DNA from: Thermoanaerobaculia bacterium
GTDB taxonomy: Bacteria > Acidobacteriota > Thermoanaerobaculia > UBA5066 > DATFVB01
NCBI GenBank assembly: GCA_035260525.1
Contig: DATFVB010000172.1
Span: forward strand, 1 to 33,763
Direction: 5' to 3'
DNA length: 33,763 nucleotides
The position numbers and the translations under genes are program-made. Positions 23,596 to 33,763 of this stretch are shown one piece after another (position 1 is the stretch's first letter; every line of letters begins with the position of its first letter). The notes under the pieces were generated by a model, which searched no databases, was not told where the DNA came from, and worked only from the letters and a program-made list of their open reading frames with translations.

Positions 23596-25845
23596 ATGAG
23601 GGATAACTGCGCCCGCCTGCTCCTCCTTTTCTTCTCGGCGGGGATCGCCGCCGTCGCTCGCGCCCAGGAGCCGCCTCCGCCGCTCGCGATCCCCCGGACG
23701 ACCGGCGTGATCACGGTGGACGGCAGTCTGGGAGACCCCGGCTGGAAAGACGCGGCCGTGATCGACCGGTTCTGGGAGACGCAGCCGGGCGACGACGTCG
23801 AGCCTCCCGTCAAGACGATCGCGCGGGTGACGTATGACGACCTCTTCTTCTACATCTCCCTCGACTGCCGCGACCCCCATCCGGAGAAGATCCGTGCCCC
23901 GTACGTCGACCGCGACAACGTCATCGGCACGGACGACAACGTCGCGATCTTCCTCGACACGCGCGACGATCACCGCTCCGCCATCGAGTTCCGCGTCAAT
24001 CCGCGCGGGATCCAGGGGGACGCGAGCTACAACGACGCCAACGGCAACGAGGACTTCTCCCCCGACTTCTTCTACGACACCGCGGCGCAGATCACGGCGA
24101 CGGGCTGGACCGCCGAGGTGCGCATCCCGTTCTCCTCGCTGCGGTATCCGAACAAAGACCCGCAGCAATGGGGGATCCTCGTCTGGCGCAACTATCCGCG
24201 CGAATTCCGCTACGCGTTCCACAGCAGCCCCATCCCGCGCAACTCGAACTGCTGGCTCTGCCACGAGATGCAGCTCACCGGGCTCACCGGGCTTCCCGGC
24301 GGCGGACACATCGTCGCCGCGCCGTACGTCACCGCGAAGGAGGAGGGCCGTCCCCGCGGCGGCGCCGGGTCCGAGATCGTCAACCGGCCCACGCGAGGAG
24401 ACGCGGGACTCGACGTGAAATGGACGCCCAACGCGAGCACGGCGCTCGACGCGACGATCAACCCCGACTTTTCCCAGGTCGAGTCGGACGTGGGACAGAT
24501 CAGCGTCAACAACCGGTTCGCGCTCTTCTTCCCGGAGAAGCGCCCGTTCTTCCTGGAAAGCGTCGACCTGTTCGACACGCCGATCCAGGCCGTTTACACG
24601 CGGACGATCACGTCGCCGCGCTGGGGAGCGCGCGCGACCGGAAAGTTCGACGCGTCGACGTACACGCTCCTCGTCTCGGAGGACCGCGGCGGGGGAAGCG
24701 TGATCATTCCGGGACCGACGCAGTCGGATTTCGCGCCGCAGGACTTCTCCTCGATCGCGGCGATCGGACGGATCCGCCAGGACGTCGGAGGGTCCTTCGG
24801 CGGGCTCCTGCTGACCGACCGCGAGATCGAGGGAGGGGCCGGGGGGCACAACCGCGTGCTCGGTCCCGATTTCCAGTGGCGGCCGGGAGACAAGGACCAG
24901 GTGACCGCTCAGCTCCTCGGCAGCGACACGCAGACGCCGAACCGCCCCGATCTCGCTCCCGAATGGAACGGCCGGCGGTTCTCCTCGCGGGCGATCTTCC
25001 TCTCGTGGCTCCACACCGGTCCGCACTGGGTGTTTCGTTCGACGTACCAGGACATCGGCGACGGGTTTCGGGCCGACGACGGCTTCGTTCCGCAGGTCGG
25101 GTTCCGGCAGGAGCGGCAATTCGCCGGCTACACGTTCTACCCGAAGGGGTTCTTCAACCGCGTGCAGCCGTACGTCGTCGTCAATTATCTGGCCGACGCC
25201 GACGGCGCGCTGGTCCAGCGCCAGACTTTTCCCGGCGTGTCGGCGAGCGGCCGCTACAATCTGAACGCGGAGCTCGACTACAACTGGAAGCAGAAGGACC
25301 GGGTCGCCGATCGCGATCTCGAGGCGACGAACGTCGCCTATTTCCTCCAGATCGACCCCTCCCGCCGGATCTCCCGCCTGACCCTCGTGGGATTCTTCGG
25401 CGAGCACCCGGACGTCGCCAACGTCCGGGTCGGCCGGGGCGGAGAGATCGAGGCGGACGCCACGATCAAGCCGACGGACCACCTCGAGCTCGACTTCAAC
25501 AGCGATCGCCAGTGGCTCGACGTCGACTCCGACGGCCGGCACGGGCGGCTCTTCACGGCGCAGATCGAACGGCTCAAGGCGACCTACAACTTCACGGCGC
25601 GGACGTTCCTGCGCGTCATCGGGCAATACCTGGACGTCCGCACCGACCCGTCGCTCTACACGTTCTCCGGCGTGCCGAAGCGTTCGGGCGGCTTCGACGG
25701 GTCCGCGCTCTTTTCGTACAAGCTCAACTGGCAGACGGTCTTCTTCCTCGGCTACGGCGACAGCCGGGTGCTCGAGCCCAAGGGAGATCTCCTGCGCTCC
25801 GACCGTCAGTTTTTCCTGAAGATCTCCTACGCCTTTCAGCGCTAG
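23596..25845 (+). CDS. DUF5916 outer-membrane-type protein with CBM9-like N-domain and CXXCH motif, copy 1
   Basis: 749 residues from ATG 23596 (signal peptide ARLLLLFFSAGIAAVARAQ). Residues about 35-210 are the carbohydrate-binding-9-like sandwich (GVITVDGSLGDPGWKDAAVID, ARVTYDDLFFYISLDCRDP, DNVAIFLDTRDD, WTAEVRIPFSSLRY). From about 290 on is the DUF5916 region: DVKWTPNASTALDATINPDFSQVESD, FALFFPEKRPFFLE, VYTRTITSPRWGARATGK, then alternating strands to a C-terminal SYAFQR ending in an aromatic-plus-Arg, as in outer-membrane barrels. C219-W-L-C222-H223 sits between the two parts. An earlier in-frame start exists but would lie upstream of the promoter. It is paralogous to the gene at 31598. 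Biological function of the family is not established. Confidence 0.85.
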   Translation: MRDNCARLLLLFFSAGIAAVARAQEPPPPLAIPRTTGVITVDGSLGDPGWKDAAVIDRFWETQPGDDVEPPVKTIARVTYDDLFFYISLDCRDPHPEKIRAPYVDRDNVIGTDDNVAIFLDTRDDHRSAIEFRVNPRGIQGDASYNDANGNEDFSPDFFYDTAAQITATGWTAEVRIPFSSLRYPNKDPQQWGILVWRNYPREFRYAFHSSPIPRNSNCWLCHEMQLTGLTGLPGGGHIVAAPYVTAKEEGRPRGGAGSEIVNRPTRGDAGLDVKWTPNASTALDATINPDFSQVESDVGQISVNNRFALFFPEKRPFFLESVDLFDTPIQAVYTRTITSPRWGARATGKFDASTYTLLVSEDRGGGSVIIPGPTQSDFAPQDFSSIAAIGRIRQDVGGSFGGLLLTDREIEGGAGGHNRVLGPDFQWRPGDKDQVTAQLLGSDTQTPNRPDLAPEWNGRRFSSRAIFLSWLHTGPHWVFRSTYQDIGDGFRADDGFVPQVGFRQERQFAGYTFYPKGFFNRVQPYVVVNYLADADGALVQRQTFPGVSASGRYNLNAELDYNWKQKDRVADRDLEATNVAYFLQIDPSRRISRLTLVGFFGEHPDVANVRVGRGGEIEADATIKPTDHLELDFNSDRQWLDVDSDGRHGRLFTAQIERLKATYNFTARTFLRVIGQYLDVRTDPSLYTFSGVPKRSGGFDGSALFSYKLNWQTVFFLGYGDSRVLEPKGDLLRSDRQFFLKISYAFQR

Positions 25846-25855
25846 GGGTGGCTGG

Positions 25856-25982
25856 CGCGGCCATGCATCGAGCCGGACGGGCGCGTGCCGCCCGGCTGCG
25901 GCGCTCGCCGTACGCCCCGGTACGACTCGGCCGCAGCCCGGGCAACCCGCATCCCGTCGGGCTCGCGCCTCGCCGCGCCTCA
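25856..25982 (+). repeat. 3'-end hairpin repeat, copy B (downstream of DUF5916 gene 1)
   Basis: Starts about 10 bases after the stop codon at 25845, in sense orientation. Outer arms CGAGCCGGACGGG (25869-25881) and CCCGTCGGGCTCG (25953-25965); inner arms CCCGGCTGCGGC (25891-25902) and GCCGCAGCCCGGG (25930-25942); tip CGTAC-GCCCCG-GTACG. Differences from copy A keep the pairing. An in-frame peptide starting MHRAGRARA is open here and in copy A, but not in C or D. Confidence 0.75.
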
Positions 25983-26014
25983 TCCGATTCCCATGTCATG
26001 GCGACGTGGGGGCT

Positions 26015-26029
26015 ACTGGAAATTCCAGT
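26015..26029. promoter_or_regulatory. 15-bp perfect palindrome, candidate operator
   Basis: ACTGGAA-A-TTCCAGT ends 18 bases before the TAGAAT -10 box of the PEBP gene, i.e. over its -35 region. It is outside the hairpin repeat copy B. It may be a binding site for a dimeric regulator. Confidence 0.4.
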
Positions 26030-26047
26030 GGGACCGATCGTCTGCTC

Positions 26048-26053
26048 TAGAAT
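26048..26053 (+). promoter_or_regulatory. -10 box of the PEBP gene, leaderless arrangement
   Basis: TAGAAT, six bases, then ATG 26060. No ribosome site is present before the ATG. Confidence 0.5.
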
Positions 26054-26059
26054 TGACGC

Positions 26060-26611
26060 ATGACCGGCATCTGGCTGGGCGCGGGCTTCCTGATCGCCGC
26101 CGTCGCGGGCGGACGGGCGGGAACGCGCCTTTCCGTCCAGAGCTCGTCCTTTCGGGCGGGCGCGGCGATCCCCCGCAAGCACACGTGCGACGGAGACGAC
26201 GTCTCCCCCGCGCTCTCCTGGTCGGGAGCGCCGGAAGGCACGAAGGAATTGGCTCTCCTCTGCGAAGATCCCGACGCTCCCGGCGGGACGTTCGTGCACT
26301 GGGTCCTCTGGGGAATTCCCGGCGGGACGACCGATCTGCCCGAGGGCGTCGCGGCCGGCGACGCGGTCCCGGGACTGGCGCAGGCGCGCCAGGGGACCAA
26401 CGGCTTTCGAATCCGCGGATACCGCGGCCCGTGCCCGCCTCCCGGCAAGCCCCATCACTATCATTTTCGCGTGTACGCGCTGGGCGCACGGCTCGACCTC
26501 CCCGCCGGCTCGACGATCGAGCGCGTGCGCGAGTCGATGAACGGACACGTTCTCGCCGAGGGAGAGCTCATCGGGATTTACGGCCGCGACGGCAGCACAG
26601 CTCGCGCCTGA
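26060..26611 (+). CDS. YbhB/YbcL-type PEBP (Raf-kinase-inhibitor-like) protein
   Basis: 183 residues. After an N-terminal hydrophobic stretch (WLGAGFLIAAVAGG, probable signal peptide or anchor) comes the whole phosphatidylethanolamine-binding-protein fold: SSSFRAGAAIPRKHTCDGDDVSPALSWSG, LALLCEDPDAPGGTFVHWVLWGIP with the DPDAP and HW ligand-pocket motifs, GTNGFRIRGYRGPCPPPGKPHHYHFRVYAL and ESMNGHVLAEGELIGIYGR at the C-terminus. Bacterial members have no settled function; ligand binding of small anions or phospholipid head groups is inferred from the pocket. It stands alone with its own promoter region between two repeat elements. Confidence 0.9.
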   Translation: MTGIWLGAGFLIAAVAGGRAGTRLSVQSSSFRAGAAIPRKHTCDGDDVSPALSWSGAPEGTKELALLCEDPDAPGGTFVHWVLWGIPGGTTDLPEGVAAGDAVPGLAQARQGTNGFRIRGYRGPCPPPGKPHHYHFRVYALGARLDLPAGSTIERVRESMNGHVLAEGELIGIYGRDGSTARA

Positions 26612-26629
26612 GGCGCTCGACGGTTTGCT

Positions 26630-26915
26630 GCCTCTCAGATCGCGGACCTCCTCCTCGCCGGGCGCTTGCGCACACACGGAGCTGCGAGCGCAGGGAGCGG
26701 CCGAATTCCCTTCTCCCCACGGGAGAAGGTGACGGCCGAAGCGAAGCGAGAGCCGTCGGATGAGGGAGCCGCATAGCGGCGTGCGCTGCGCGTTCATTCC
26801 GGCGACGAGACTTTCCGCGATCTGACCTCCGTCGCTCGTCCCTGAGGGACTCGACGACTCCGGCGCCCCTGGCCCCGAGCCGCGTTCGCGACCTCTCGGC
26901 GCTCGGATCGCGAAC
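26630..26915 (-). repeat. Dispersed repeat R2, copy interrupted by another repeat
   Basis: The 340-base gap after the PEBP gene is filled by R2 in reverse orientation to the copy at 17016-17197. Left part 26630-26671 (GCCTCTCAGATCGCGGACC to GGCGCTTGCGC) and right part 26783-26915 match it closely. Between them are 111 bases where the other copy has 5. The extra DNA includes the CTCTCCC-type repeat. No coding function is supported. Confidence 0.7.
26706..26770. repeat. CTCTCCC-type repeat nested in R2
   Basis: TTCCCTTCTCCCCACGGGAGAAGG followed by a GCGAAGCGAGAGCC spacer and GGATGAGGG. Same layout as the copies at 1546-1684 and 16343-16390: a stem, a variable spacer and a GTGAGGG-like end. Confidence 0.6.
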
Positions 26916-26949
26916 GGCCCCCGAAAAGGAGCGCGCCGCGCTCATATCG

Positions 26950-27606
26950 ATGAGCGATCCGGCCGTTCGCGCCGGGAGATCATTTGCGACAGAATCGATC
27001 GCCGTGCGACGCCTTCTTCTCCTCGCTCTCCCCTGGGTCCTCGCCGCCCTCTTCCTCTTCACGACGATCGAGCTCCTGCTCCATCGCAAGCCCGCCAGGG
27101 CGGCGGTCTCGGTCGACTCGGCGCCCGTCGTCATGGCGATGAAGAAGATCGCGCGGCTGGCGACCGTCGAGGTTCAGGTCTCCGACGTCGTCAAGTACGA
27201 GGAGTTCAAGAGCTTCCTCTTCATGAGCTTCCCGAAGAGCGCGACGCTGCGGGTGCGCGGATCGGTCCTTGGCGGCTTCGACCTCCAGCGGGACGGCGTC
27301 TCCGTCGTCGCCCACCCGGAAACGCGGAAGGTCGAGATCCGGATGCCCCGCCCCGCCATCCTCGCCGTCGACCCGAAGCTCGAGTGGTTCGACGAGAAGA
27401 GCGGGATGTTCAACCCGATCACGCCGGCCGACCGGAACCGGTGGATGGCCTGGGCGCGCACGAGCCTCGCGCGGACCGCCCGTCAGGCGGGGATGGACGA
27501 CAGGGCGAAGGAGCAGGCGAGGAAGCTCCTGGCCGGGGCCGCCGAAGCGCTCGGATGGACGGCGGACGTGGAGTTCCCCGGCGGTCCTCCGGCCCCGCTC
27601 CCCTGA
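26950..27606 (+). CDS. DUF4230-like single-pass membrane protein
   Basis: 218 residues from ATG 26950, or 200 from GTG 27004, which lies directly before the membrane helix (RRLLLLALPWVLAALFLFTTIELLL). The GTG is eight bases after CAGAAT in an AT-richer stretch, so the shorter form is a real alternative. The rest is extracytoplasmic: MAMKKIARLATVEVQVSDVVKYEE, then strand-like segments with VRGSVLGGFDLQRDGVSVV, EIRMPRPAILAVDPKLEWFDEKSG, and a helical end (ARTSLARTARQAGMDDRAKEQARKLL). This layout fits the DUF4230 family, of unknown function. Its stop codon lies 3 bases before the ECF-type promoter of the sigma factor gene. Confidence 0.7.
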   Translation: MSDPAVRAGRSFATESIAVRRLLLLALPWVLAALFLFTTIELLLHRKPARAAVSVDSAPVVMAMKKIARLATVEVQVSDVVKYEEFKSFLFMSFPKSATLRVRGSVLGGFDLQRDGVSVVAHPETRKVEIRMPRPAILAVDPKLEWFDEKSGMFNPITPADRNRWMAWARTSLARTARQAGMDDRAKEQARKLLAGAAEALGWTADVEFPGGPPAPLP

Positions 27607-27608
27607 GT

Positions 27609-27630
27609 AACCTTTCGGACGGGATCACGT
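27609..27630 (+). promoter_or_regulatory. ECF-sigma-type promoter (AAC-N16-CGT) before the sigma factor gene
   Basis: AACCTTTCGG (-35) and CGTCATA (-10) with exactly 16 bases between AAC and CGT, about 50 bases before the TTG start at 27679. The pattern fits self-activation by an ECF sigma factor and recurs before both DUF5916 genes. Confidence 0.6.
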
Positions 27631-27678
27631 CATACGAAGGGTGAAGGGAAGCGCGCGTTTGACCGAAGCGGCCCCAAG

Positions 27679-28242
27679 TTGAAGACGGACCTGGACTTCC
27701 TGAACATGGTCCGGCGCGGCGACCCCGCGGGGGCGACCGGTCTCTTCGAAAAATATGCCGACGCGCTTCTTCGGTTCGCGGACCGGATGCTGTCCAACCG
27801 GGGCGAGGCGGAAGAGGTCACCCAGGAGGTGTTTCTCAAGATGATCACCCGGGTCGAGCAGTACGACGGACGAGCGGCGGTCTCGTCCTGGCTCTTCGCG
27901 ATCGCGGCCAACGCGTGCCGCGACCGAATGCGCCGCAACCGGCGCGCGGTCGTCGTGCCGCTCGACGCCGTCGCCGAACCGCCGTCGAAGTCGGAGTCGG
28001 TCGAGAACCGGATCCACGAGGGCGATCGCCGCCGGGCGGTCCGGCGGGCGCTGTCGAAGCTCTCCGACGAACAGCGCGAGGCGCTCGTGCTCGCGCGATA
28101 CCACGGGATGCCGTACGCCGAGATCGCGCGGACCCTGCAGATCACCGAAGGCGCCGTGAAGACCCGGATCTTCCGCGCCATGGAAACGCTCAAGGAAATC
28201 TTCTCGGAGGGAGGCGCCACATGGAATGCGATGACGTCGTAG
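27679..28242 (+). CDS. ECF-type RNA polymerase sigma factor
   Basis: 187 residues from TTG 27679; the frame has no ATG or GTG upstream before the stop at 27604, so TTG is the only plausible start. Sigma region 2 is at residues about 12-75 (ATGLFEKYADALLRFADRMLSNRGEAEEVTQEVFLKM, then WLFAIAANACRDRMRRNRR), and region 4 at about 123-175 (LSKLSDEQREALVLARYHGMPYAEIARTLQITEGAVKTRIFRAMETL). No region 1 or 3, as expected for group 4. The 3' end overlaps the zinc-finger anti-sigma gene by 22 bases. Candidate targets, from AAC-N16-CGT motifs, are this operon and the two DUF5916 genes. Confidence 0.92.
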   Translation: MKTDLDFLNMVRRGDPAGATGLFEKYADALLRFADRMLSNRGEAEEVTQEVFLKMITRVEQYDGRAAVSSWLFAIAANACRDRMRRNRRAVVVPLDAVAEPPSKSESVENRIHEGDRRRAVRRALSKLSDEQREALVLARYHGMPYAEIARTLQITEGAVKTRIFRAMETLKEIFSEGGATWNAMTS

Positions 28243-29162
28243 GGCGGGCCGTCGAACGGCTTGCCAATCCCGCGTCGGCGGGGGCCGGTCCGCTCGACGC
28301 CCATCTCGACTCCTGCGAAAAGTGCCGGACCGAAGTGGAAGCGATCGAACGGGCGTGGGTCCGTCTCGGCGCGGATCCCGACGCCGCGATGGAGCCGGAG
28401 TTTCGCCGCGAGATGCGCGCGATGCTCGAGGCCGAGACGCTCCGCCGGCGCGTCGCGCCGATCCGGGCGCGGCGATGGATGCCGGCGCTCCAGGCCGCGG
28501 CGATGCTCGCGATGGGAGCCGGCGGCTACCTCGTCGCCCGCTCGGCGGTCCCCGCGCGGCCGAGCCCGGTCGCGGTCGCTCCCGCCCGCGTCATCGACGC
28601 CGACCGGTCGATCCCGGACCTCTCGCGCCAGCCGAAGCTCGCCAACGTCGCGTTCCGCCCGGCCGACGCGTCGGGACGGATCGGCATCTCGTTCGACGTG
28701 ACGACGCGCTACACGGTCGTCGGAAAGCCGAACGAGAGGGGCGTCGCGGACGTGCTCGCGTACATGGTCTCGGGATCCGGCGCGACGGAGGGGGCGCGCG
28801 GCAAGGCGATCGACCTCGTGTCGCAGCACTATTCCGGCGAGACGCCCGTTTCGCCCCAGATCGTCGCGACGCTCGTCGAAACGCTCAGGACCGACAAGAA
28901 CCCCGGCGTCCGCAAGAAGGCCGCCGAGGCCCTCGGCCAGCTGCCGCCTTCTCCGGAAGTCCGAGACGCGTTCCTTTCGGCCCTCAAGGGGGACGCGAAC
29001 CCGGCCGTCCGCATCGCCGCCGTCGAGGGGCTCGCGAAGGCCGCGCTGTCGCTGCGCGACCCCGCCGCGATCGAGACGCTGCGCGAGAGGGCCAATGACG
29101 ACCGCGAGACCGGCTACGTCCGCGTGAAGGCGGCGAAGGCGTTGAAGCGCATCGACCTGTGA
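28221..29162 (+). CDS. Zinc-finger anti-sigma factor fused to periplasmic HEAT repeats
   Basis: 313 residues from ATG 28221 (GGAGG upstream), overlapping the sigma gene by 22 bases. The cytoplasmic part has the zinc-binding anti-sigma signature H28-x3-C32-x2-C35 (AHLDSCEKC). One membrane helix follows (residues about 88-108, ALQAAAMLAMGAGGYLVA). The outer part has a linker with strands (KLANVAFRPADASGRIGISFDVTTRYTVVG) and then alpha-helical HEAT-like repeats to the end: LVETLRTDKNPGVRKKAAEALGQL, FLSALKGDANPAVRIAAVEGLAKA, LRERANDDRETGYVRVKAAKALKRI. The zinc part should hold the sigma factor at the membrane; the HEAT part is a plausible sensor or protein-binding surface. That a HEAT array is on the outer side is read from topology only. 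Confidence 0.85.
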   Translation: MECDDVVGRAVERLANPASAGAGPLDAHLDSCEKCRTEVEAIERAWVRLGADPDAAMEPEFRREMRAMLEAETLRRRVAPIRARRWMPALQAAAMLAMGAGGYLVARSAVPARPSPVAVAPARVIDADRSIPDLSRQPKLANVAFRPADASGRIGISFDVTTRYTVVGKPNERGVADVLAYMVSGSGATEGARGKAIDLVSQHYSGETPVSPQIVATLVETLRTDKNPGVRKKAAEALGQLPPSPEVRDAFLSALKGDANPAVRIAAVEGLAKAALSLRDPAAIETLRERANDDRETGYVRVKAAKALKRIDL

Positions 29163-29170
29163 GGAGCACC

Positions 29171-31186
29171 GTGACTTTTCCCGACGCCCGCCGTCTTACC
29201 GGCATGAACAGCCACACGACCTCCCGCGACCGAATCTCGCTCTGGATCGTCCTCGCCGTCGGACTGGCGCTGCTCGCCGTCGCGGCAATCTCGCGCGCGG
29301 ACGATTATTCCGCGGCCGCCCGCCGAACGGACCGTTTCTCCGGGGCCGGCCTCACCCGGCTCTCGCTCGAGAACGTCGGCGGCGACATCCGCGTGTCGGC
29401 GGGCGCGGCGTTTTCGGCGACGGCCGACGTCACCGTCCGCGCCGACACGCCGGCGCTCGCGAAGAAGTATCTCGACGCGACGCGGATCGAGCTGCGCAAC
29501 GACGGGGGCGGCTCCTTCAGCCTCGTGACCGAGGAGCCCGGAGCCCGCGTGTCGCGGCACGGAGGCGGCTGGGACATCGAAGTGCATCGCCGCGGAGCGC
29601 GGTTCCGGGTGGAAGCCCGGTTCGCGGTCACCGTCCCCGCCGCCGCGGCCGTGGACGTCCACACGGTCAACGGGAACGTCTCCACCGACGGGATCGGCGG
29701 CGCGATCAACGCGCGCTCCGTCAACGGACGCGTGAGGATCTCGGGCGCCCGCCGGGACGTGACCGCGCACACGGTCAACGGCGCGATCGAGGCCTCGCTC
29801 GCCGAGCTCCCGCACGGCACGCGCATCGACGCCGAGACGGTCAACGGGGCCATCGAACTCCGGCTCCCGCCCCGTGCGGCGTTCGATTTCCGGGGCCACA
29901 CGATGAACGGGGACATCGTCTCGACGTTCCCGCTCCCCTTCCACGAGATCCCGGACCAGACGGAACGGATGCGGGCGGAGCGCGAGAAGGTGCGCGCCGA
30001 GCAGGAGAAGCTCCGGCGCGAGATCCGGATGCGGAAGGAACACGCGCGCAAGGACGACGACGGAGACGTTGACATCGACCTCTCCGGGCTCGACGAGGGG
30101 CTCTACGAGCTGTCGCAGGAGCTCGCCCGGATCGGGCCGGAGATCGCGGCCGCGGTCTCGCAGTCCCTCAATCACACGTATCAGGGTTCCGTCGGCGGCG
30201 GCGGAGCCGACGTCAGGTGCTCGACGCTGAACGGCCGGATCGCGGTCCTGGCGGAAGGGACGTCCGACGAACGAGCGAAATCTCTCCTCCCGCGGCGCGG
30301 CCGCGGGACGCACGAGGCCCCCGAGCCTCCGGAGCCGCCGGAAGCGCCGGCGGTCCCGGTACCGGCGCCTTCGGTGCTCCGCCCCCCCCGTCCGCCGCGC
30401 GCGCCCCGGGCCGGCGTGAACGGAGGAGTGGAAGGCGGCGTCGCCGGCGGAGTCCGCGGCGGGATCCCCGGCGGCGTCCGCGGCGGCGTCCCGGGCGGGA
30501 TCGAGGAAGGCTCGATCGTCCGGGGCGACATCGCCGGGGACTTCTCGACCACGCTTCCGTTCGGCGACGTCCAGCTCGGAAAGGTTTCGGGGGCGGTGCG
30601 GATCGTCACCTACGGCGGGCAGATCCGCGTCGCCGAAGCCGGCAAGGGCGCCGACCTCTCGACGTCCGGCGGCGACATCCAGATCGACGGCGTCCACGGC
30701 GACCTGCGGGCGATCACGCACGGCGGCGAGCTCCGTGTCGGTCGCGTCACGGGCGACGCGAAGCTCGAGACCATGGGAGGCGACGTCGACCTGGCTTCCT
30801 GCGGCGGCTCGGTCATCGCGAAGACGGGAGGCGGCGACCTGCGGCTCCACCGGATCCGGGGCTCGATTCGCGCGTCGGCGGGGGGCGGGGACGTGCGCTG
30901 CGAGATCGTCGGCCGCGAGACTTCCGAGGGCGTCTCGATCGCGAGCGGCTCTGGAGACGTGACGCTCGTCCTCCCGTCGAACTTCCGCGCCGACGTCGAC
31001 ATCCAGGTCGACGGCGTGGACGAGTCGATGGACGCGATCGTCACCGACTTTCCGGAGATCTCGATCTCCCGCCGTCCCTCCTCCATGCGGCAGTCGGCCG
31101 GGGGCGCCATCAACGGCGGCGGCCCCAAGGTCTCGATCCGGATCTCGTCGGGGACGGTGCGGCTCAAGAAGGGACCACCCGCGTAA
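29171..31186 (+). CDS. Large secreted DUF4097-type double solenoid protein
   Basis: 671 residues from GTG 29171, which has GAGGAG just upstream; GTG 29159 (4-nt overlap with the anti-sigma gene) and ATG 29204 are alternatives. A signal anchor (LWIVLAVGLALLAVAAISRA) leads into a solenoid with (T/S)VNG turns (TVNGNVS, SVNGRVR, TVNGAIE twice, TMNGDIV, TLNGRIA). A charged helix interrupts it at about 265-300 (MRAEREKVRAEQEKLRREI). After a Pro-rich linker and a Gly-rich stretch of GGV/GGI repeats (about 418-445), a second solenoid has GG turns (TYGGQIR, TSGGDIQ, THGGELR, TMGGDVD, TGGGDLR, AGGGDVR). Third gene of the ECF operon and therefore a likely part of the regulated response. Function unknown. 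Confidence 0.8.
   Translation: MTFPDARRLTGMNSHTTSRDRISLWIVLAVGLALLAVAAISRADDYSAAARRTDRFSGAGLTRLSLENVGGDIRVSAGAAFSATADVTVRADTPALAKKYLDATRIELRNDGGGSFSLVTEEPGARVSRHGGGWDIEVHRRGARFRVEARFAVTVPAAAAVDVHTVNGNVSTDGIGGAINARSVNGRVRISGARRDVTAHTVNGAIEASLAELPHGTRIDAETVNGAIELRLPPRAAFDFRGHTMNGDIVSTFPLPFHEIPDQTERMRAEREKVRAEQEKLRREIRMRKEHARKDDDGDVDIDLSGLDEGLYELSQELARIGPEIAAAVSQSLNHTYQGSVGGGGADVRCSTLNGRIAVLAEGTSDERAKSLLPRRGRGTHEAPEPPEPPEAPAVPVPAPSVLRPPRPPRAPRAGVNGGVEGGVAGGVRGGIPGGVRGGVPGGIEEGSIVRGDIAGDFSTTLPFGDVQLGKVSGAVRIVTYGGQIRVAEAGKGADLSTSGGDIQIDGVHGDLRAITHGGELRVGRVTGDAKLETMGGDVDLASCGGSVIAKTGGGDLRLHRIRGSIRASAGGGDVRCEIVGRETSEGVSIASGSGDVTLVLPSNFRADVDIQVDGVDESMDAIVTDFPEISISRRPSSMRQSAGGAINGGGPKVSIRISSGTVRLKKGPPA
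30382..30389 (+). repeat. Run of eight cytosines inside the DUF4097 gene
   Basis: The run codes for part of the Pro-rich linker (LRPPRPPRAP). A one-base slip would shift the frame and cut off the Gly-rich stretch and the second solenoid. It may be chance in GC-rich DNA. Confidence 0.35.
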
Positions 31187-31191
31187 CCGTC

Positions 31192-31420
31192 GCAATCGCG
31201 ACGCTCGCGGAGCTCGGATCGCGATTGCTCCCGCCGCGGCTCGGGTTCCAACCCTCGACCGCTCCGGCGCCCGACCGGAGCCGCAGAATCCCGGCCGGGA
31301 ACCCCGCAATCGCGACGCTCGCGCGAGAAGATCCCTCGCTCGTTCGTTGCCGCCGCCCGGCGTCGGCCGGGGAGCTCGGGACTGAGCCCTCCGCGCTCAG
31401 GCTCGGACGCGATTGCGCGA
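31192..31420. repeat. Tandem-like hairpin repeats before DUF5916 gene 2
   Basis: The 411-base gap between 31186 and 31598 starts with repeat DNA. GCAATCGCGACGCTCGCG is present exactly twice (31192-31209 and 31306-31323). The first copy pairs with CGCGATTGC at 31220-31228 as a 9-bp-arm hairpin; a related GCTCGGACGCGATTGC closes the second unit near 31416. CTCGACCGCTCCGGCGCCC links it to R2. The rest of the gap (31430-31545) has no recognised element except AT-richer patches. Confidence 0.55.
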
Positions 31421-31550
31421 GACTTCGTCGCGCCGCGGAAGGCCCCCCAAAAATCGCTGGGCGACCCCTGGCCGCCGGGCTGCTTCACCGTAAACTCTCG
31501 TCTGTTCATCCCGCCGGTGGGCTCCTTCTCCGGCCAAATATCCGGCGTGG

Positions 31551-31572
31551 AACTTCGGCTCGATTCCCTCGT
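31551..31572 (+). promoter_or_regulatory. ECF-sigma-type promoter (AAC-N16-CGT) before DUF5916 gene 2
   Basis: GGAACTT (-35) and CGTATCA (-10), exactly 16 bases between AAC and CGT. GGAACTT is the classical ECF -35 form. Transcription would start near 31581, leaving a leader with GAGGAGAGGGGA before TTG 31598. This rules against the in-frame GTG at 31547, which is upstream of the promoter. Confidence 0.6.
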
Positions 31573-31597
31573 ATCAGGAGCGAGGAGAGGGGAACTC

Positions 31598-33763
31598 TTG
31601 CAAAACTGGAACGCGCTGGCAATCGCCCTCGGCGCGCTCGCGGCGGCGGGAGCCGCCGCCGGACAGACGCCGCCGTCCGACGAGCCGCCGATCGAGATCC
31701 ATCGCGCGGCCGGACCGATCACCGTCGACGGAGACCTGTCGGATCCCGGCTGGCAGGGCGCGGCGAGAGTCGAGACCTTCTACGAGACCAAGCCCGGCGA
31801 CAACACGCCGCCGAAGGTCCGGACCGTCGGGTTCCTGACGTACGACGGCCACGCGCTCTACGTCGCGTTCGAATGCGACGATCCGGACCCTGCGCGCATC
31901 CGCGCACCGTTCGCGGACCGCGACGCCGTCTCCTCCGACACGGACTACGCCGGGATCATCCTCGACACCCGACACGACCGGCGGACGGCGATCGAGTTCC
32001 TCGCCAATCCCCGCGGCGTCCAGTACGACGCCGTGCAGGACGACGCGTCGGGCAACGAAGACACGTCCGTCGACCTCTTCTGGGATTCCGCGGGGAAGAT
32101 CGGGGCGCGGGGTTGGACGCTCGAGATCCGGATCCCCTTCTCGAGCCTCCGGTACGACTCGAGCGCGCGGCCGGTCTGGGGCATCCAGCTCTACCGGAAC
32201 TCGACGCGCGACACGCGCTATCAGTACTTCTCGAACCGCCTGCCGCGGGACTCGAACTGCTTCATCTGCCACGAGCGGGATCTCGTCGGGCTCGAGGGCC
32301 TCCCCTCGGGCGGACACGTCATCGCCGCCCCCTACGTGACCGCGGCGGAACAGGGACGGCGAACCGACGGAGGCGATCTCTCCTCTCCCTGGGTGAACCG
32401 CCCCGTGCGGGGCAACGCGGGGCTCGACGTCAAGTGGCTGCCCAACGCCGACACCGCGATCGACGGCACGATCAACCCCGACTTCTCGCAGGTCGAATCG
32501 GACGTCGCGCAGATCTCGGCCAACACCCGGTTCGCGCTCTTCTACCCGGAGAAGCGCCCCTTCTTCCTCGAGGGGTTGGATCTCTTCTCGACGCCGATCC
32601 CGGCCGTCTACACGCGGACGATCACGTCTCCCCGCTGGGGAATCCGCGGCACCGGCAAGATCGACTCGACGAACTACACGATGCTCGTGACCGAAGACCG
32701 CGGCGGCGGGTCGGTGATCGTCCCGGGCCCGCAGTCCTCGACCTTCGTCGACCAGGACTTTTCGTCGATCGCCGGGATCGGCCGCGTTCGGAAGGACTTC
32801 GGCCGCTCGTACGTGAGCTTCCTCGCAACGGACCGCGAAGTCGAGGGAACGGGCTACAACCGGGTCTTCGGCCCCGACTTCCAGTGGTCGCCCGACGACT
32901 CCAACCAGATCCGCGGCCAGTTCCTCTACTCCGCCTCGCAAAACCCGAACCGCCCGGATCTCTTTTCGGGATGGAACGGCGAGCGCGTGTCCGGCCACGC
33001 CGCGTTCGTGAGCTGGGATAACACGGAGCTGACCCATGGCTGGTTCGTGGAAGCCATGGACGTTTCGGACGGCTTCCGCGCCGATGACGGCTTCGTGCCG
33101 CAGGTCGGGTACCGCGAAGTCAAGCCGGAGTTCTCCCTGCATTTCTACCCGACGGGCTTTTTCACGCGCCTGCGGCCCCTCGTGATGGCGGACTACACGG
33201 CCGACACTTCGGGGCGCACGCTGCGGCAGCGGGTCTTTCCGGGGATCTCCTTCGAGGGCCATCGCAGCCTGCAGGGCGAGGTCGACTACCTCTTCTCCTC
33301 CGAGCGCGTCGGAGACAAGCTGATCCCGAAGAACTTCTGGTCGATCTCCGTCCAGTTCTCGCCGTCGAGCGTCTTCGGCCAGATGTCGGTCAGCGGCGAG
33401 ATCGGAGACCAGATCGACTACGCGAACGCGCGGCCGGGCCACGGCGGGTCGCTCACGCTCTCCTCCCGCATCCAGCCGGAAGACCATCTCGAGCTCCGTC
33501 TCGACGAGGCGCTGTCGTGGATCAACGTCGACGCCGGCGAAGGGGAGCGCCGGCGGCTCTTCACCGCCGTTGTCCACCGCCTGAAAGCGACCTACAACTT
33601 CACGAACCGGACGTTCCTGCGCGGCATCGTCCAGTACATCAACGAGGACCGCAACCCGGCGCTCTACAACGACACGACGATTCCCCGGCGCGACGCCGCG
33701 CTCTCGAGCTCAGTCCTGCTCGCGTACAAGCTCAACTGGCAGAGCGTGCTGTTTCTCGGCTAC
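31598..33763 (+). CDS. DUF5916 outer-membrane-type protein with CXXCH motif, copy 2, cut by window edge
   Basis: An open frame of 722 residues from TTG 31598 to the right edge, still open. TTG is chosen for its GAGAGGGGA site, the signal peptide it begins (LAIALGALAAAGAAAGQ) and the promoter just upstream. The layout equals copy 1: a CBM9-like N-domain (GPITVDGDLSDPGWQGAARVE, IILDTRHDRRTAIEFL, WTLEIRIPFSSLRYD), C221-F-I-C224-H225, then DVKWLPNADTAIDGTINPDFSQVESD, FALFYPEKRPFFLEGLDLF, VYTRTITSPRWGIRGTGK and barrel-like strands, ending here at LNWQSVLFLGY, which corresponds to LNWQTVFFLGY about 37 residues before the end of copy 1. So only the last strands are missing. It follows the ECF operon by 411 bases. 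Confidence 0.85.
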   Translation, partial: MQNWNALAIALGALAAAGAAAGQTPPSDEPPIEIHRAAGPITVDGDLSDPGWQGAARVETFYETKPGDNTPPKVRTVGFLTYDGHALYVAFECDDPDPARIRAPFADRDAVSSDTDYAGIILDTRHDRRTAIEFLANPRGVQYDAVQDDASGNEDTSVDLFWDSAGKIGARGWTLEIRIPFSSLRYDSSARPVWGIQLYRNSTRDTRYQYFSNRLPRDSNCFICHERDLVGLEGLPSGGHVIAAPYVTAAEQGRRTDGGDLSSPWVNRPVRGNAGLDVKWLPNADTAIDGTINPDFSQVESDVAQISANTRFALFYPEKRPFFLEGLDLFSTPIPAVYTRTITSPRWGIRGTGKIDSTNYTMLVTEDRGGGSVIVPGPQSSTFVDQDFSSIAGIGRVRKDFGRSYVSFLATDREVEGTGYNRVFGPDFQWSPDDSNQIRGQFLYSASQNPNRPDLFSGWNGERVSGHAAFVSWDNTELTHGWFVEAMDVSDGFRADDGFVPQVGYREVKPEFSLHFYPTGFFTRLRPLVMADYTADTSGRTLRQRVFPGISFEGHRSLQGEVDYLFSSERVGDKLIPKNFWSISVQFSPSSVFGQMSVSGEIGDQIDYANARPGHGGSLTLSSRIQPEDHLELRLDEALSWINVDAGEGERRRLFTAVVHRLKATYNFTNRTFLRGIVQYINEDRNPALYNDTTIPRRDAALSSSVLLAYKLNWQSVLFLGY

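Follow-up and report, generated by a model that had tools for sequence, protein, structure and literature searches.

The CXXCH of two DUF5916 paralogs: a conserved Cys pair, probably a structural disulfide, followed by a variable residue

DUF5916 is a protein family to which Pfam gives no function. Two paralogs are encoded in the window, which is one whole contig (C172) of 33,763 bases, and both contain a literal CXXCH, the attachment motif of c-type heme. The question raised by this locus is whether the motif holds a heme, as the initial annotation proposed, or a metal site or redox disulfide, which it named as alternatives. The features considered are listed below.

23596..25845, + strand: copy 1, DUF5916 protein of 749 aa; ATG at 23596, stop codon ending at 25845; PF19313 at 47.0 bits against a cut-off of 22.6
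23665..24285, + strand: CBM9-like domain of copy 1 (model residues 1-207); CBM9_1 at 30.3 bits, structural matches
23866..23868, + strand: Cys of DCRDP in copy 1 (C94 of P0001), uncoupled from the CxxC
24250..24264, + strand: C-W-L-C-H of copy 1; CxxC conserved, His not
24298..25836, + strand: predicted outer-membrane beta-barrel of copy 1 (model residues 212-724); AlphaFold model, 24 strands of at least 7 residues
31598..33763, + strand: copy 2, DUF5916 protein truncated by the contig end, with an uncertain start codon; PF19313 at 42.7 bits
31874..31876, + strand: Cys of ECDDP in copy 2, the C94 equivalent by alignment of the paralogs
32258..32272, + strand: C-F-I-C-H of copy 2; reading frame, pattern search, alignment

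The frame of copy 2, open from 31187 onward, runs off the contig at 33763, and about 29 C-terminal residues of the protein are missing. The shared SNC-x2-CHE reported initially was found again in both paralogs, as NSNC-WL-CHE in copy 1 (first Cys codon at 24250; C222 in the P0001 numbering used here, C219 in the earlier one) and as DSNC-FI-CHE in copy 2 at 32258. A degenerate CXXCH pattern searched on both strands of the window has two sites, exactly the two paralog motifs. Shuffled sequence gave a mean expectation of 0.26 sites, and at least two sites in 3 of 100 shuffles. The two occurrences are not independent and count as one event, since the two proteins align across the motif at 53-54% identity. 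The further N-domain Cys, in DCRDP and ECDDP, is likewise present in both copies (23866 and 31874), and export of both proteins agrees with N termini that, judged by eye, look like signal peptides.

Both paralogs exceed the curated Pfam cut-off for PF19313, with best stretches that cover only profile positions 24-94 (copy 1) and 25-85 (copy 2) out of 572. The carbohydrate-binding family CBM9_1 (PF06452; cut-off 23.4 bits) is matched above its cut-off by copy 1 and below it by copy 2 (18.0 bits). At E-values up to 10 these were the sole Pfam matches, with no cytochrome c, thioredoxin or MtrB_PioB family among them, and a search of NCBIfam returned no match. Among solved structures searched by sequence, 1i82 was found at E 0.018, in an aligned part that stops ahead of the motif; otherwise E-values were 0.3 to 0.5 or there was nothing. 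A search of the open-licence literature found nothing on DUF5916/PF19313, on family-9 carbohydrate binding at the outer membrane, or on CBM9 together with DOMON and heme.

The mature part of copy 1 was modeled with AlphaFold2 from a 140-row alignment (model residue = P0001 number minus 26), with a mean pLDDT of 95.8 and a pTM of 0.92. Compared by VIA-align, the N-domain is closest to 4jpq (Z 19.0), followed by the CBM9 modules CkCBM9.3 (7nwn, Z 18.2) and TmCBM9-2 (1i82, Z 17.8), with which it has its fold in common, and by the ethylbenzene dehydrogenase chain 2ivf_C (Z 14.4). After model residue 211 the secondary-structure listing contains 24 strands of at least 7 residues, which would form the predicted barrel. 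The CxxC, in the exported part of the protein, occupies model residues 196-199 within a short turn, with strand 182-186 before it and strand 202-207 after it, just ahead of the barrel. In four CBM9 or CBM9-like chains the last aligned model residues are 207-211, beyond the motif, so that the motif seems to lie inside the CBM9-like fold, ahead of its last strand, and not after the domain where it had been placed. A thioredoxin fold around the CxxC was not found, either by Pfam or in the model, in which the motif sits in the CBM9-like fold.

DUF5916 is common among the genomes sampled. Searched with copy 1, 269 of 297 genomes of the same phylum contained a match; in a further sample, 50 of 51 genomes have matches. 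The closest named relatives are from Acidobacteria MAGs, Pseudoalteromonas homologs with CxxCQ are represented by L127 and L128, and homologs occur also in Alteromonadales, Bacteroidota and Gemmatimonadota plasmid records, several of them annotated with DUF5916 or CBM9_1 domain names. The number of DUF5916-like matches per genome is 2 in the genome of the window, 11 in G304 (L153, L157, L160, L162, L164, L166) and 17 in G345 (L168). The sample for alignment was composed of loci from the genome searches, 80 stretches picked among the matches listed and 10 of 25 plasmid records; it is weighted to sequences scoring near copy 1, mostly of Acidobacteriota and Gemmatimonadota with few Bacteroidota. 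After removal of contained duplicates 185 rows remained, both window copies included. For the tree, 16 rows covering less than 85% of the columns were dropped, and the remaining 169 were used with FastTree, whose tree lacks support on 45 of its 166 inner branches.

Positions 222 and 225 (P0001) carry two Cys in 107 of the 185 rows, one Cys in L078 alone and none in 68, with a gap in the other 9; for the 169 rows of the tree the corresponding counts are 107, 1, 59 and 2. The pair is thus jointly present or absent in 175 of the 176 rows with letters at both positions. On the tree it is limited to one clade of 116 rows and changes six times. If read as losses, five of these changes fall inside the clade and four of them remove both Cys, a direction that parsimony alone does not give; the candidates for loss of the pair are L017, L038, L042 and a five-row clade (L092, L094, L096, L097, L103), and L078 kept one Cys. 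Cys-less rows mostly have Ser or Gly at the first position and Ala or Ser at the second (S-F-L-A-Q). In 106 of the 107 CxxC rows the stretch 205-246 is 42 residues long, whereas 49 of the 62 other rows have 41 residues there and are therefore not simple Cys-to-Ser/Ala swaps in an unchanged loop. The fold does not require the pair, given that some members lack it.

The residue that follows the pair behaves differently. Among the 107 CxxC rows it is Gln in 60, His in 18, Asn in 11, Arg in 7, Ser in 4, Leu and Lys in 2 each, and Thr, Trp and Glu in 1 each. All 18 His rows, the only ones with CxxCH, fall within one 42-row clade, the rest of which has Asn (10), Arg (6), Ser (3), Leu (2), Thr (1), Trp (1) and Gln (1, in the Cys-less L017). 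On the 169-row tree His and not-His interchange nine times, and counted among the 107 CxxC rows alone the residue changes 23 times. The sisters L005 (His) and L034 (Leu) are 72% identical; copy 1 (His) and its sister L004 (Arg) are 68% identical in this alignment, and L004 is also the best-scoring relative of copy 1 (CWICR, 67% identical). Rows without the full pair have Gln here in 49 of 62 cases. Gln prevails at this position throughout the family, and His looks like a late, unstable substitution.

A covalent c-type heme at the motif, which would make these proteins electron-transferring components of the outer membrane, is not supported because the His varies freely in relatives. It is absent from 89 of the 107 CxxC rows and is swapped between the two sister pairs, and the initial annotation had itself named such variation as grounds for giving up the heme reading, which we reject. 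What speaks for it is the literal CXXCH in both paralogs, a genome that makes real cytochromes c, and the likeness of the N-domain to 2ivf_C, a subunit of ethylbenzene dehydrogenase that holds heme b; however, the CBM9 and CBM9-like chains (Z 17.8-19.0) match better than 2ivf_C. With c-type cytochromes the DUF5916 proteins have the letters CXXCH in common but neither a conserved His nor a cytochrome domain. The genome of the window (G000, 98% complete) has 13 Cytochrome_CBB3 matches, 10 of them above the cut-off, with CxxCHG in all six loci read. The proposed comparison with cytochrome c maturation genes does not discriminate: this genome has CxxCHG cytochromes c yet gave no match to CcmF, CcmE or ResB. 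One Cytochrom_C_asm protein, encoded on contig C176 among heme-synthesis genes (gene names judged by eye from translations), looks like HemX. As the genome has Cytochrome_CBB3 proteins, missing the known maturation genes does not exclude heme, and its maturation system may be divergent or lie in an assembly gap. Within the 42-row clade, a screen for a distal ligand took nine residue types column by column for association with His226. The strongest associations are Tyr518 and other non-ligand residues, which resemble markers of subclades. Met323 is the one Cys, His or Met within the top 20, being present in 7 of the 18 CxxCH rows versus 0 of the 23 CxxC rows without His. None of these associations was taken as a signal, because many columns were compared among related rows. 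H241 occurs in 17 of the 18 CxxCH rows and also in 17 of the 23 CxxC rows of the same clade without His. No distal His or Met is conserved. Overall, the heme is very improbable.

A metal site, for example for Zn or Fe, built from the two Cys and other side chains, would fit the joint behavior of the pair and the several conserved Asp and Glu of the CBM9-like domain, and CBM9 modules bind calcium (PMC8280721, a 2021 study). Nevertheless, no further Cys, His or Met is conserved in at least 85% of the 107 CxxC rows; the best is His 476 in the barrel, at 72%, and outside the pair 35 of the 107 proteins are free of Cys over aligned columns 40-752. The CxxC clade has nine rows in which the pair is incomplete or absent; E155 is missing from 6 of these, D84, D108 and D160 from 4 each and D399 from 3, as a ligand of such a site might be, but no acidic or other conserved residue is missing throughout all nine, and E155 is missing in 14 of the 107 CxxC rows as well. 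The third Cys of the N-domain varies independently of the pair. C94 is present in 35 of the 107 CxxC rows versus 20 of the 62 others (Fisher p 1.0) and mostly alternates with Ala; coupling to the CxxC was accordingly rejected, and too few informative pairs were available for an independent-pairs test on the tree. The metal site suggested initially is improbable on these counts. Ligand conservation in the alignment speaks against both heme and a Cys/His metal site, and it fits a disulfide of the two Cys.

A disulfide of some kind is the most likely state of the pair. Of the redox disulfide named in the initial annotation, the Cys pair as a unit was upheld by its joint presence or absence, and redox activity found no support here. 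An exchangeable or inter-protein disulfide is nonetheless suggested by MtrB of Shewanella: one of the two Cys might be bonded to a partner where the barrel opens to the periplasm, or the pair might work as a thiol switch or as a handle for assembly. A 2025 study (PMC12175506) reports that Cys42 and Cys45, close to the N terminus of MtrB, may form a disulfide, that ferric reduction was lost in C42A and not in C45A, that a heterologous disulfide was proposed, and that the solved structure does not include the N-terminal part with these two Cys. Like this N-terminal CxxC, the DUF5916 pair sits directly before the first barrel strand, and MtrB (6r2q_B) is among the top VIA-align matches of the large barrel (Z 16.6, rmsd 4.1, 405 residues aligned). 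That structural likeness is not special, because it is tied with the TonB-dependent receptor PirA (5fp2, Z 16.4, 371 aligned), after which many more TonB-dependent receptors rank. Ranked by E-value, Foldseek alone puts TonB receptors at the top and MtrB in seventh place; by query TM-score MtrB leads the 50 matches listed (0.40). MtrB has 26 strands (PMC7198977), versus 24 counted in the DUF5916 model. An hhalign comparison of DUF5916 with 24 of the 30 MtrB_PioB loci from the phylum gave a probability of 83.5 over only 168 C-terminal columns, ragged and run without a TonB-receptor control, and the genome of the window has no match to PF11854 (MtrB_PioB). Both Cys are conserved in DUF5916, whereas only one matters in MtrB (PMC12175506); no N-terminal CxxC was seen in the 30 MtrB_PioB loci, two of which (L227, L232) are in the wrong frame and two (L208, L229) perhaps lack their N termini; and no gene neighbor recurs in 15 DUF5916 loci, several with short flanks. 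MtrB_PioB porins encase a multiheme cytochrome encoded nearby; of the 19 window ORFs scanned, many of which have no match of any kind, none is a cytochrome. The parallel with MtrB is treated as an analogy, and the exchangeable or inter-protein disulfide is unlikely. Narrower, and rather doubtful, is the claim by analogy that the CxxC might serve as a functional thiol switch or mixed-disulfide handle of the kind proposed for MtrB Cys42; were it true, opening and closing of the switch would control the ligand loop of the periplasmic domain or dock a partner at the mouth of the 24-strand barrel.

The CxxC is probably an intramolecular structural disulfide that braces the junction between the CBM9-like domain and the barrel; that the disulfide forms, what it stabilizes and that it faces the periplasm are what we infer. 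The two Cys would be joined after export, and their bond would brace the loop leading into the final strand of the periplasmic CBM9-like domain. It would thereby stiffen the junction of this domain with the outer-membrane barrel, and possibly also the domain's ligand loop. The His that follows would be a neutral variant at a tolerant position. Counting against a structural disulfide, VKOR, the one oxidant searched for, was not found in the genome of the window.

The ligand loop enters by way of the sugar clamps of CBM9 modules, which are Tyr89 and Trp191 in CBM9.3 and Trp71 and Trp175 in TmCBM9-2, the second clamp Trp being on the loop between strand 11 and helix 4 (PMC8280721). In the structural alignments model residue 211 ends against residue 206 of 7nwn, and 208 against 188 of 1i82. 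Counted back from these ends and assuming no gap, the C-terminal clamp Trp (Trp175/Trp191) would correspond to about model residues 195-196, adjoining the CxxC. Residue 223, between the two Cys, is Phe, Tyr or Trp in 61 of the 107 CxxC rows and in 45 of the 62 other rows, its correspondence to the clamp being by counting back only. It is possible that the disulfide holds a ligand-stacking loop of the CBM9-like domain.

For DUF5916 a misleading heme clue is in this way replaced by a checkable one, a paired Cys in the loop between domain and barrel that is kept in one large clade. A literal CXXCH that is found in one or two genomes can likewise mislead counts of cytochromes.

Directly upstream of copy 2, at 27679-31186, genes for an ECF sigma factor, a HEAT-repeat protein and a DUF4097 protein follow one another. 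PEBP, DUF4230, sigma factor, HEAT and DUF4097 neighbors are not recurrent beside DUF5916 in the 15 loci compared, several of which have short flanks; the exception is L036, with a weak DUF4097 match and a distant PEBP match. The N terminus of the HEAT-repeat protein (28221) has a short Cys/His stretch which by eye resembles anti-sigma factors, and in the DUF4097 protein a repeat with 12-base spacing at 30434-30502 encodes Gly-rich units. Porins of the MtrB_PioB type (L204-L233) occur in 71 of the 297 sampled genomes of the phylum, 68 of them above the cut-off. In both DUF5916 paralogs a segment NPDFSQVE...PEKRPFFLE (24379-24678 and 32393-32692) with many family-invariant residues (D, E, R) lies between early barrel strands; in the model it falls within a long stretch free of strands, and it may be a plug in the lumen or an active site.
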